Assembly (NCBI GenBank): GCA_016793775.1
Contig: JAEULK010000043.1
Location: 186,001 to 250,000, forward strand
Direction of reading: 5' to 3'
Source: Sphingopyxis sp.
GTDB lineage: Bacteria > Pseudomonadota > Alphaproteobacteria > Sphingomonadales > Sphingomonadaceae
DNA length: 64,000 nt
Under the pieces are notes generated by a model that did not search any database, was not told the origin of the DNA, and saw only the letters and a program-made list of their open reading frames with translations. The position numbers and the translations under genes were made by a program. The stretch's first letter is position 1. The number at the start of each line of letters is the position of its first letter. Below, piece after piece: positions 17,858 to 60,019 of this stretch.

Positions 17858-17867
17858 CCGAGGGGGC

Positions 17868-17957
17868 AATAAATAGGGACAGTCCCTATTTAATTATCGC
17901 GCGCGCGGTACGCCGCGCCGACAGTTTGCGATTAAATAGGGACTGTCCCTATTTATT
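17868..17957. repeat. REPIN-like palindromic element between glyQ and glyS
   Basis: Two copies of the palindrome AAATAGGGAC-N-GTCCCTATTT (cores 17871-17891 and 17934-17954), each with AATA/ATTA edges and opposite in orientation, enclose a GC-rich 35-bp loop. The 90-bp unit is an imperfect hairpin. Related copies occur at 58277-58397. The form resembles REPINs mobilised by REP-associated tyrosine transposases; no such gene is in this window. Confidence 0.8.
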
Positions 17958-17969
17958 GAGGGATGCGCT

Positions 17970-20177
17970 GTGACCGACTTTCTTCTCGAACTGCGCAGCG
18001 AGGAAATCCCGGCGCGGATGCAGGGCGGCGCGCGCGCCGAGCTCGAAAAATTGTTCCGCGCGCATCTGGGCGCTGCTGGGCTCGAAGCGGGCGAGCTCAC
18101 CATCTGGTCGACCCCGCGCCGCCTTGTGCTGAGCGCGCGCGACTTGCCGGAGGCGACCGCTGCGGTCAGCGAGGAACTCAAGGGTCCGCGCAGCAGCGCG
18201 CCGCCGCAGGCGCTCGAGGGTTTCCTGCGCAAGACCGGCCTGACGCAGGATCAACTAGAGGATCGCGATGGCGTGTATTTCGCGGTGATCGACAAGCCCG
18301 GCCGCGCGACCGCCGAGGTGCTCGCCGAGGCGATCCCCGCGATCGTTCGCGGCTTTTCGTGGCCCAAGTCGATGCGCTGGGGCAAGGACAGCGCGAGCAG
18401 CGAAAGCCTGCGCTGGGTGCGCCCGCTGTCGGGCATCGTCGCGATCTTCGGCGAGGAACTGGTACCGTGCGAAATCGGCGGCATCGTCAGCGGTTTCGCG
18501 ACGCGAGGCCATCGTTTCCACTGCCCGGGCGAGATCACGATCGGTTCGGCGTCGGATTACGCCGAGAAGCTGCACGCGTGCCACGTCATTGTCGACCATG
18601 AAGAACGGCAGGCGATCATTCGCGACGGCGCCGCGAAAGCCGCGGCCGACGCGGGCCTGACGCTCGTCGAGGACGAGGGGCTGGTGATCGAGAATGCCGG
18701 GCTCACCGAAAGGCCGGTGCCCTTGCTCGGCCGCTTCGATGAAGCCTTCCTCGAAGTCCCGCCCGAGGTCATCCAACTCACCGCGCGCGTGAACCAGAAA
18801 TATTTCGTCGTGAACGGGCCGGATGGCAAGCTGGCCAACGGCTTCGTCTGCACCGCGAACATCGACGCGAAGGACGGCGGCGCGGAGATCGTCGCGGGCA
18901 ACCGCAAGGTGCTCGCGGCGCGCCTTTCCGATGCTCGCTTCTTCTGGGAACAGGACCAGAAGAAGACGCTCGCGCAGCATGCCGAAAAGCTTGCGAACAT
19001 CACCTTCCACGAAAGGCTGGGGACGGTTGCCGATAAGGTCGAGCGCGTCGCGAAGCTGGCGCGCTGGCTGGTCGAAGAGGGCATCGTCACCGCCCGTACC
19101 CCGGCGAAGGCCGGGACCCAGAGCGGCACAGAGCAAACGGCAGCATCAGGCAGCCCTGGGCCCCGGCCTACGCCGGGGAACACGGATGAGTTGGCCGACC
19201 AAGCCGAACTCGCTGCGCGTCTGTGTAAGGCCGATCTCGTCACCGAAATGGTCGGCGAGTTCCCCGAATTGCAGGGCTTGATGGGCGGCTATTACGCCCG
19301 CGCCGAGGGCTTGCCGGACGCGGTCGCCGACGCGATCCGCGACCATTACAAGCCGGTCGGGCAGGGCGATGACGTGCCGACCGCACCGGTGACGGTGGCT
19401 GTGAGCGTGGCGGATAAACTCGACAGCCTCGGGCAGTTCTTTCACGTCGATATGGCTCCCACGGGTTCAAAGGATCCATTCGCATTGCGAAGGGCTGGTT
19501 TGGCAATAATTGCGCAGGTCATTGCAACCGAGGTCCGACTGCCATTTTTCTCGGTGCTCCCGAACTCTATCGGGATGCCGGGCAACACTGCAGTGAAGAT
19601 TTCTTCGGACCGTGTGTTTGAGTTTCTGATCGATCGCCTCAAGGTCCAGCAGCGCGAAGCCGGCGTTCGTCACGACCTAATCGACGCGGTGTTCGCGCTT
19701 GGCGGCGAGGATGACCTCGTTCGGTTGCTCGCGCGCGTGAAGGCGTTGCAGGCGTTCATGGCAACCGAAGACGGTACGAACCTGCTCGCGGGCTACAAGC
19801 GTGCGGCGAATATCCTGAAGCAGGCGGGCCAAGGCAGTTCCCCGGCGAAGGCCGGGGTCCAGAGCGGAGAAGGGCCGACCTTTGTGGATGATAGCACTCG
19901 ACCCCGGCCTTCGCCGGGGAACATGACAGAGCATGACGCAGCCTTGCTCGCCGCCCTCGACACCGCTGAACCTGCCGCCGCGGCCGCGGTCGCCGACGAG
20001 CGCTTCACGGACGCCATGGCCGCGCTCGCCAGCTTGCGCGCGCCGATTGATGCCTTTTTCGAGGGTGTGATGGTCAACGATCCCGTTGAGGAAGTACGCG
20101 CCTATCGGCTCGGCCTGCTCGCGCGCTTCACCGGCGCGGTGCATGGGGTCGCCGATTTCTCGAAGATCGAGGGGTAG
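17970..20177 (+). CDS. glyS: Glycyl-tRNA synthetase beta subunit carrying two in-frame palindromic insertions
   Basis: tRNA-binding and editing-like subunit of glycyl-tRNA synthetase, 735 aa against about 690 usual. It begins with GTG (TDFLLELRSEEIPARMQGG) and shows family blocks GVYFAVIDKPGR, LRWVRPLSGIVAIFGEE, GLMGGYYARAEGLPDAVADA and FFEGVMVNDPVEEVRAYRLG. The extra length comes from two ~30-residue stretches (about 376-405 and 623-651) encoded by related DNA palindromes and both reading PAKAG-x-QSG ... PRP-x-PGN. Both keep the frame open, so the gene appears functional. It follows glyQ after a REPIN-like element. Confidence 0.95.
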   Translation: MTDFLLELRSEEIPARMQGGARAELEKLFRAHLGAAGLEAGELTIWSTPRRLVLSARDLPEATAAVSEELKGPRSSAPPQALEGFLRKTGLTQDQLEDRDGVYFAVIDKPGRATAEVLAEAIPAIVRGFSWPKSMRWGKDSASSESLRWVRPLSGIVAIFGEELVPCEIGGIVSGFATRGHRFHCPGEITIGSASDYAEKLHACHVIVDHEERQAIIRDGAAKAAADAGLTLVEDEGLVIENAGLTERPVPLLGRFDEAFLEVPPEVIQLTARVNQKYFVVNGPDGKLANGFVCTANIDAKDGGAEIVAGNRKVLAARLSDARFFWEQDQKKTLAQHAEKLANITFHERLGTVADKVERVAKLARWLVEEGIVTARTPAKAGTQSGTEQTAASGSPGPRPTPGNTDELADQAELAARLCKADLVTEMVGEFPELQGLMGGYYARAEGLPDAVADAIRDHYKPVGQGDDVPTAPVTVAVSVADKLDSLGQFFHVDMAPTGSKDPFALRRAGLAIIAQVIATEVRLPFFSVLPNSIGMPGNTAVKISSDRVFEFLIDRLKVQQREAGVRHDLIDAVFALGGEDDLVRLLARVKALQAFMATEDGTNLLAGYKRAANILKQAGQGSSPAKAGVQSGEGPTFVDDSTRPRPSPGNMTEHDAALLAALDTAEPAAAAAVADERFTDAMAALASLRAPIDAFFEGVMVNDPVEEVRAYRLGLLARFTGAVHGVADFSKIEG
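19097..19183. repeat. Palindromic element inside glyS, copy 1
   Basis: Arms CCCCGGCGAAGGCCGGG (19099-19115) and CCCGGCCTACGCCGGGG (19162-19178) are inverted repeats with one mismatch in 17. The unit adds about 29 codons and is read as TPAKAGTQSG...PGPRPTPGN. Flanking protein (LVEEGIV and DELADQAELAARL) resumes normal GlyS sequence. Confidence 0.88.
19837..19922. repeat. Palindromic element inside glyS, copy 2
   Basis: Perfect 23-bp inverted repeat: arms 19837-19859 and 19900-19922, containing CCCCGGCGAAGGCCGGGG and its complement. Read in the same frame as copy 1 (SSPAKAGVQSG...RPRPSPGN). It adds about 29 codons between NILKQA and the AALLAALD-type region of GlyS. Confidence 0.9.
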
Positions 20178-20198
20178 AGCTCACCTCCCACCCCGTTC

Positions 20199-20266
20199 GT
20201 GTCGAGCGAAGTCGAGACACCCGGAAGTCGAGCGTAGACGAAGCGTCTCTTGACTTCGCTCGACAC
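20199..20266. repeat. Intergenic inverted repeat downstream of glyS
   Basis: GTGTCGAGCGAAGTCGAGAC (20199-20218) and GTCTCTTGACTTCGCTCGACAC (20245-20266, spaced here as two parts GTCTCTTGACT and TCGCTCGACAC) form a near-perfect hairpin in the glyS-ppdK gap. It is a different family from the glyS palindromes. It could also act as a transcription end for glyS. Confidence 0.7.
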
Positions 20267-20377
20267 AAGCGGGGAAGGGGCGGGCGCTTGAATCGGACGA
20301 AGTAAAACTGAATCGACCTGGGACGGTCGCGCCACTATTCCCCGCCAACCTCCTCCCCGGGGCAGCAGGAGCATGAA

Positions 20378-23039: not shown

Positions 23040-23117
23040 CGTCGCCCTCGCGAAGGCGGGGGCCGCAATCGGCCTTGCGCAATGCTGCCAGCGGTCCCCG
23101 CCTTCGCGGGGACGACG
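23040..23117. repeat. Intergenic palindromic repeat (GCGAAGGCGGGGGCCGC family)
   Basis: Arms CGTCGCCCTCGCGAAGGCGG (from 23040) and CCGCCTTCGCGGGGACGACG (to 23117) form a long inverted repeat, directly after the ppdK stop and 12 bp before the next start codon. The same family recurs at 59930-60019. Confidence 0.85.
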
Positions 23118-57835: not shown

Positions 57836-58281
57836 TCCGCGTTTCGGTCGGCCCCGGGGCGATCGACGTCGCGGCGGAATATGCCGCGCATGACGCGGGC
57901 GGGCATGGCGCGAGCGCGAGCTTCGTCGGGCGGGTGCGCGGCGACGACGGGCTGAGCGAATTGTTCCTCGAACATCATCCGGTGCTGACGCTGGCGGGGC
58001 TGGAGGAATTGGCGGCGACGGCGGCCGCGCGGTGGACGCTCGCGGCGCTGACCCTGATCCACCGCGTCGGGGGCATGGCGCCGGGCGAGACGATCGTACT
58101 GGTGCTGGCGAGCAGCGCGCATCGCGGCGAGGCGCTGGCGGCGGTCGAATTTCTGATCGACCGGCTGAAGACCGATGTGATGCTGTGGAAGCGCGAGACG
58201 TTTGGCGATGGCCGGGTCGGCTGGGTGGAGCAGCGCGACGGGGATCATGAGCGGGCGGAGCGGTGGGTCCCTGGCCAATAA
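57832..58281 (+). CDS. moaE: Molybdopterin synthase catalytic subunit MoaE
   Basis: 149 aa. HGASASFVGRVRGDDG, LFLEHHPVLTLAGLEELA, LIHRVGGMAPGETIVLVLAS and VMLWKRETFGDGRVGWV (catalytic Lys) are the family blocks. Its TAA stop lies inside the first palindrome of the downstream REP-like array, so the element abuts or overlaps the end of the gene. Confidence 0.96.
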   Translation: MIRVSVGPGAIDVAAEYAAHDAGGHGASASFVGRVRGDDGLSELFLEHHPVLTLAGLEELAATAAARWTLAALTLIHRVGGMAPGETIVLVLASSAHRGEALAAVEFLIDRLKTDVMLWKRETFGDGRVGWVEQRDGDHERAERWVPGQ

Positions 58282-58397
58282 ATAGGGACAGTCCCCATTT
58301 AATCAGAGCCGTTGATTGATCCCAGTGCTGGCAATGCAATTAAATAGGGACTGTCCCTATTTATTATGCAATTAAATAGGGACTGTCCCTATTTATT
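58277..58397. repeat. Three-copy REP-like array between moaE and oxyR
   Basis: Three copies of the AAATAGGGAC-N-GTCCC(T/C)ATTT palindrome: 58277-58303 in one orientation, 58339-58365 and 58371-58397 in the other. Copies 2 and 3 are identical in the core and only 5 bp apart; copy 1 has one core change. Copies 1 and 2 form a REPIN-like hairpin; copy 3 looks like a tandem addition. Same family as 17868-17957. Confidence 0.85.
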
Positions 58398-59929: not shown

Positions 59930-60019
59930 CGTCGCCCCCGCGAAGGCGGGGGCCGCTGGCGGCCTTATCGGGCGATGCCGCGTAAACCGATTGCGGCCCC
60001 CGCCTTCGCGGGGGCGACG
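59930..60019. repeat. Intergenic palindromic repeat (GCGAAGGCGGGGGCCGC family)
   Basis: Perfect 27-bp inverted repeat: CGTCGCCCCCGCGAAGGCGG starts the left arm (59930-59956) and CCGCCTTCGCGGGGGCGACG ends the right arm (59993-60019). It fills the gap between the convergent EF-hand and trmFO genes. Same family as 23040-23117. Confidence 0.9.

Follow-up and report, generated by a model that had tools for sequence, protein, structure and literature searches.

How did the gene for an essential tRNA synthetase come to carry two long palindromes in frame, and does the encoded protein depend on them? The window analyzed here is a stretch of 64,000 nucleotides from Sphingopyxis sp. (host genome 3.93 Mb in 106 contigs). 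Its glyS gene (17970..20177, + strand) starts with GTG and encodes the 735-amino acid β subunit of glycyl-tRNA synthetase, as assigned from the open reading frame and from family models (NCBIfam TIGR00211, 678.8 bits; Pfam tRNA_synt_2f also matches). Two 87-bp inverted repeats lie within it, 741 bp apart, each a REP-like inverted dimer read on the + strand. Insert 1, at site 1 (19096..19182; residues ~376–404), has arms at ~19096–19124 and ~19153–19181; insert 2, at site 3 (19837..19923; residues ~623–651), has arms at 19837–19865 and 19894–19922, all located by repeat and motif searches. The inserts are direct copies of each other at 19096–19126/19837–19867 (90%) and 19152–19182/19893–19923 (87%). 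The glyS frame passes through both without a stop and translates them as PAKAG-x-QSG...PRP-x-PGN (PAKAGTQSG...PRPTPGN in insert 1 and PAKAGVQSG...PRPSPGN in insert 2). Over 29 nt the two arms of copy 2 show 93% complementarity, including 23 consecutive perfect pairs, and the palindrome of copy 1 is weaker than that of copy 2 (score 17). A sequence-only reading of this DNA had described two ~87-bp palindromes giving peptides in the same phase, the second with arms perfectly complementary over 23 bp, and both points were borne out. It had also put the addition at about 29 residues each. The additions are indeed in frame, but the net gain over a 665-amino acid relative (L143) is ~31 residues for insert 1 and ~21 for insert 2, which departs from the insert length because adjoining residues differ as well.

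As RNA, the inserts are predicted to fold at −59.0 and −64.2 kcal/mol (z −8.15 and −8.37 relative to shuffles). Hairpin strength is the one point that speaks for programmed removal, in which the insert would be spliced out or bypassed by the ribosome and so be absent from the protein. Removal would not need an in-frame length, however, and both inserts keep the frame exactly and contain no stop, so that we regard this explanation as very improbable.

The glyS palindromes belong to a dispersed family. Each arm is a small hairpin of the form CCCCGGC-GAAG-GCCGGGG, with two arms facing each other, and a sister arm motif reads CCCCCGC-GAAG-GCGGGGG. An 18-nt arm motif, allowing up to 3 mismatches, matched 8 times within the window as compared with 0.67 expected from shuffles, and across the genome gave 106+110 matches versus 12+8 for a reversed control. 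A degenerate arm motif and its sister, at up to 1 mismatch, gave 69+65 matches genome-wide versus 0+0 for the reversed control. Sixty stretches around most of the listed genome matches, together with the window and locus L189, yielded 77 elements; this sample was drawn from two lists of ~100 places each (whole counts 216 and 134) and is biased toward well-preserved copies. Inverted pairs make up 55 of the 77, with spacings of 62 (21 pairs), 50 (17), 63 (9), 61 (6), and 44 and 51 (1 each). Among the 110 arms of own-genome pairs, 80 have CGTC at −5 to −2 ahead of the stem, and the glyS copies are without an exact CGTC tag. The consensus arm in the genome is G-CCCCCGC-GAAG-GCGGGGG-C, followed by an unpaired tail that is mostly CCGC in the consensus and CCA in the glyS left arms. 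Motif searches placed two further copies in the window, neither assigned a strand: one of the 50-nt spacing type, 3' of the gene that follows glyS (23045..23112), and one for which a frame test found no open coding frame common to both sides (59935..60014).

We found a single match to PF01797 (Y1 transposase) in the genome, in a search that covered the assembly in its 106 contigs and may have missed a transposase. Its flanks carry another repeat (AATAAATAGGGAC...) and not the glyS arm family, and a RAYT as the mover of the glyS repeats is not supported by these sequence comparisons. Repeats of the AATAAATAGGGACAGTCCCTATTTATT type, which occur in the window at 17863–17957 (the gap between glyQ and glyS) and at 58272–58397 and also in L189, flank this one detected Y1 transposase, and the pair therefore looks like a RAYT with its own repeat.

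Three of the 77 elements were verified by homology to lie inside genes: the two in glyS and one in ileS (L236:1793). A loose test based on open reading frames and codons flagged seven, adding L201:1793, L210:3703, L218:1793, and L227:2727 to these three. L201:1793 stands as a candidate, by the open reading frame test and a six-frame comparison. L210:3703 and L218:1793 were dropped as probable noncoding-strand reading frames, judged from their translations and six-frame comparison, and L227:2727 was dropped because the motif there matches coding DNA of ubiG by chance. The six-frame and codon test is weak. It called both flanks open for just two elements, L201 and glyS copy 1, and 6 of the 77 elements lie too close to a contig end for it. 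As it misses glyS copy 2 and ileS, that is, two of the three verified copies, further in-gene copies may exist. Even so, 70 of the 77 lack a spanning coding frame under the loose test, and the glyS-type repeat is therefore mainly intergenic. In ileS (L236:1793; L250–L279), REP dimers of the same kind occur in frame in two loops and read HPREGGDP...GSRLRGN; a repeat arm was found in IleS at 20 of the 30 loci returned from a search of 80 genomes. A different repeat-like stretch, FVSSEVEA...GVSTSLDTNG, lies in frame in ubiG (L227:2440–3294, minus strand), which the UbiG model matches in two stretches.

Presence and absence of the inserts were scored across relatives, as the sequence-only reading had proposed. 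GlyS was read from 78 loci of the genus (79 of 80 genomes matched, one with only fragments being left out) and from 80 named loci, and removal of four duplicates left 154 distinct sequences. The shortest GlyS, truncated at a contig end, has 594 amino acids and the longest 852, and insertions relative to the 665-amino acid L143 reference cluster mainly at three places. Site 1 is long in 52 of 154 sequences and site 3 in 68 of the 152 that could be scored, with both long in 40 and either in 80. Within the genus, site 1 is long in 28 of 78 members and site 3 in 44 of 77, with both long in 23 and either in 49; both sites are short in 29 of 78. GlyQ served as a control at 110 of the same loci. Length variation was at most ~10 amino acids among 73 near-full hits, and a further 23 nearly complete hits showed no large insert, while 9 were cut by the locus edge and 5 loci gave no hit. 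That the inserts are ancestral GlyS loops, palindromic by chance, would fit their seemingly orthologous appearance in many Sphingopyxis. The counts already refute this, with site 1 short in 102 of 154 sequences, site 3 short in 84 of 152, and only ~6 residues at site 1 in the E. coli alignment, and the arms match a dispersed repeat. We give ancestral loops next to no credence, and on this point the sequence-only reading is supported.

The long alleles are frequently palindromic. With duplicates included, strong inverted repeats occur in 30 of 53 long site-1 regions and 45 of 72 long site-3 regions, versus none of the short regions (0 of 105 at site 1, 0 of 84 at site 3) and none of the codon shuffles (0 of 106 and 0 of 144, respectively). 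Of the long regions without a strong palindrome (23 at site 1 and 27 at site 3), some are decayed repeats and others, such as the Erythrobacter-like site-3 extensions, are not repeats. The site-1 insert has a characteristic flank in the genus, in that all 28 long alleles have LAR at the left, versus 41 LAE, 5 LAG, 3 LAR, and 1 IAA among the 50 short alleles. Thus, within the genus the insert travels with a divergent block. Sequences from outside the genus often have LAR, whether or not an insert is present. Parsimony on the GlyS tree (43 and 37 changes) was given no weight, as the gene recombines and the within-genus tree is weak.

More than one kind of repeat occupies these loops. By arm pattern, site 1 holds seven families (A, the repeat of the window, 27; B, 4; C, 4; D, 6; E, 3; F, 1; G, 1; unassigned, 6) and site 3 holds six (A, 38; B, 7; D, 2; E, 4; F, 1; G, 3; unassigned, 13). 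The patterns are loose, with L042 and L074 swinging between D and E and the site-3 assignments of L078 to E and L072 to G being doubtful, and every family is clearly represented by one or more members at its named sites. Families B to E have G/C-rich outer stems and may be related, leaving at least four clearly different groups: A, B–E, F, and G. Dispersal was checked for A, B, and C, and the labels D to G rest on arm pattern. Family B is dispersed in 8 of 8 genomes checked (63+70 hits in the genome of the window), and family C in 7 of 8 (201+200 in G073 and one hit in the genome of the window), with controls at 0 for both; the B and C motifs are nearly self-complementary, so many arms are counted twice. 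Clearly different repeats cannot share one insertion, and both GlyS loops have therefore been hit more than once. Another inverted repeat, of the GTGTCGAGCGAAGTCGAGACAC type, lies directly 3' of glyS in the window (20191–20274) and resembles both family G of some GlyS loops and the repeat-like stretch of ubiG.

The reading phase is the principal evidence for a domesticated peptide module, in which PAKAG...PRPSPGN would function in GlyS and its frame would be protected by selection. Family-A left arms follow the PAKAG phase in 24 of the 25 site-1 cases and in all 35 site-3 cases (59 of 60), counting inserts with a recognized left arm out of 27 and 38 family-A inserts, respectively. Outside glyS, 53 pairs read on both strands are open in 62, 75, and 80 of 106 cases in the three phases. 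As all three are often open, stops in the other phases do not explain the uniformity in GlyS. However, IleS uses another phase, with 21 of 22 left arms and every one of the 22 right arms in a phase other than that of GlyS (phase 1 in GlyS, phase 2 in IleS); the exceptional left arm lies early in a long reading frame, probably ahead of the true start. A preferred peptide predicts one phase in both enzymes, and this difference therefore leaves a protected frame without support. It also means that a uniform phase in one gene need not signify a coding element. Family B left arms at site 1 occur in two phases, so that phase is not universal. The proposal that the frame of the repeat is kept open is thus not supported, on account of both the open readings and IleS. 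The uniform phase at each site most likely reflects a few founder insertions that would later have been replaced in place by related copies.

Amino acid constraint weighs further against a functional peptide. In nine groups of inserts, picked by eye for peptide likeness and equal length and composed of nonindependent pairs, pN/pS is 0.51–1.10, as compared with 0.12–0.19 for core codons 11–280 of the same genes. The loop without an insert has a pN/pS of 0.33. Other repeat families, with other peptides, occupy the same loops in relatives, and many genus members are short at both sites. Domestication, as claimed by the sequence-only reading, is accordingly not supported, and we consider it improbable.

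At the nucleotide level the inserts are less divergent. Synonymous divergence is 0.10–0.22 in the inserts, below the 0.28–0.40 of the core, and the arms are the least diverse part in three of the five orthologous groups for which values were listed. These values, along with the very stable folds, might be expected if the hairpin acted in DNA or mRNA, through mRNA stability, translation pausing, or local supercoiling, with the peptide being incidental. Yet many relatives are short at the sites, and youth of the inserts or conversion with genomic copies predicts low divergence equally well. From the sequences compared, the low divergence appears compatible with youth, conversion, or stem constraint, and we think a nucleic-acid element rather unlikely, though a more serious contender than the domesticated peptide.

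The predicted structure of GlyS fits tolerance at these sites. The model has a mean pLDDT of 89.2 and matches solved bacterial GlyRS structures (7lu4, 7yse, and others). Its only segments of at least three residues below a pLDDT of 50 are 379–400 and 627–640, which lie inside inserts 1 and 2, respectively; the low values may come in part from the few aligned sequences there. The inserts are thus predicted to sit in disordered linkers. Site 1 corresponds to E. coli GlyRS residues 378–385. According to PMC8464048, the HD domain of E. coli GlyRS spans residues 341–540, which places site 1 inside this domain.

Taken together, we consider it probable that the glyS palindromes are dispersed REP-like inverted dimers residing in two permissive linkers of GlyS, where they are tolerated, replaced, and exchanged. 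The evidence for this lies in the dispersed family, the absence of inserts from relatives, the several families per site, the predicted disorder, the relaxed constraint, and the linkage to a flank within the genus. Repeats of several families would land in sphingomonad genomes, and most landings in genes would probably be lost. A stop-free, frame-keeping copy in a GlyS loop would merely add a disordered stretch to a protein that presumably functions normally, and would survive. It would then drift almost freely at the protein level, later be replaced by other repeats, and spread between lineages by allele exchange. Three observations run against simple tolerance. Synonymous divergence in the inserts and diversity in the arms are low, so the nucleic acid may be constrained, young, or converted. 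The near-uniform phase in GlyS is not predicted by pure tolerance combined with many independent landings. Lastly, no transposase was found for the glyS repeat family, and insertion itself is something we infer. The locus lends itself to studying the conversion of repeat DNA into protein, as a dense natural experiment that involves one essential gene, two loops, several families, and many related species of free-living bacteria with and without the inserts.

The stretch separating the two inserts includes a segment of the tRNA-binding HD domain that is hypervariable in its own right. It is defined by alignment as the 46 amino acids between PFALRR and DRLKVQQRE (19494..19631, + strand; residues ~509–554), and its variable part as cut (~19545–19610, + strand) has 22 amino acids and a GC content of 0.53 versus 0.67 upstream. 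This third variable site of the gene is nonpalindromic. In the 154 sequences the segment between the two motifs ranges from 24 to 127 amino acids. Variable parts of at least 18 amino acids, 131 in number, fall into 97 BLAST clusters, 77 of which are singletons. Within the genus, 70 species have 48 clusters, and of 19 pairs with a core identity of at least 95%, only 4 have a cluster in common; several clusters span genera at 71–78% core identity. GC content of the variable part averages 0.54 versus 0.66 upstream and is lower in 118 of 125 cases. Judged by these alignments, the segment looks like a set of allelic cassettes swapped by recombination. Eight cassettes examined had no Pfam match over the cut-off, and one had no match in viral contigs. 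The search with one cassette among 298 family genomes gave 0 matches and is uninformative, its source genome being absent from those listed and a positive control being lacking. In the model of one relative (L142), the segment (residues 501–560) is predicted to be helical, at an intermediate pLDDT of 59–80. It corresponds approximately to E. coli GlyRS residues 500–522, which come after a loop and a helix in contact with the acceptor stem of the tRNA, as described in PMC9908026.

IleS has a poorly alignable variable stretch as well, at ~265–325 (L260 numbering), that differs in most of the 30 loci (L250–L279); residues 925–953 (same numbering) were noted along with it. It is conceivable, if unlikely, that sphingomonad tRNA synthetases are under pressure to vary exposed loops bound by a phage protein, toxin, or inhibitor. 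The GlyS HD cassette would then be exchanged horizontally, the IleS stretch would be similar, and in the same arms race the in-frame linker repeats would supply further variation at little cost. If confirmed within species, the HD segment would be an unusual instance of cassette-like polymorphism in an essential enzyme of translation, and it would point to an unfamiliar partner or attacker. The HD-domain segment is the first item worth following and deserves a study of its own. Among the literature matches listed, nothing concerned in-frame GlyS repeats or a hypervariable GlyS segment, which is no proof of absence.

REPINs are REP dimers mobilized by RAYTs. As in REPINs, two inverted REP hairpins form a larger hairpin in the glyS repeat. 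Unlike in REPINs, no cognate RAYT flanked by the glyS repeat was found, the one Y1 transposase detected in the 106 contigs having another repeat. Rickettsia palindromic elements, as reportedly described by Ogata in 2000 and 2002, are short palindromes translated in frame inside genes, and the glyS repeats are similar in this respect. They differ in that the family has no single frame across genes, as seen from GlyS and IleS. They differ too in the share found in genes, with 3 verified among 77 elements examined as compared with nearly half of R. conorii RPEs located in ORFs, as stated in a review (PMC10969869). The likeness to Rickettsia that the sequence-only reading had drawn is nonetheless apt, since Di Nocera et al. 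2013 (PMC3733652) equate R. conorii RPE-6 and RPE-4 with REPs of the CGTC-1 and CGTC-4 families, respectively.

CGTC-tagged REPs are characterized by CGTC (or TGTC/CCTC) at one end, a stem of 8–9 bp, a loop of 4–5 nt, and a tail that CCA fits, with almost invariable A-T residues at the first two stem positions (PMC3733652). The glyS family resembles them in having CGTC before the stem, a hairpin whose consensus stem and 4-nt loop are of fitting length, and inverted dimers (55 of 77), and in being mostly intergenic with no visible transposase of its own. Its stem, unlike theirs, starts with G-C and C-G instead of A-T, although some other arm subfamilies in GlyS and IleS begin with T. Because of this stem start we call the glyS repeat REP-like, nearest to the CGTC superfamily and outside families 1–4. 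REPs in frame in genes have been described before, some of them in tRNA synthetases of S. alaskensis and E. lithoralis, with the synthetase and the REP type left unstated in that passage, and different REPs occur at about one site of recB in two Xanthomonas species (PMC3733652). In-gene REPs are thus already known (PMC3733652). What the present analysis adds is that many repeat families, not one, have come to occupy the same two GlyS loops across related genera.
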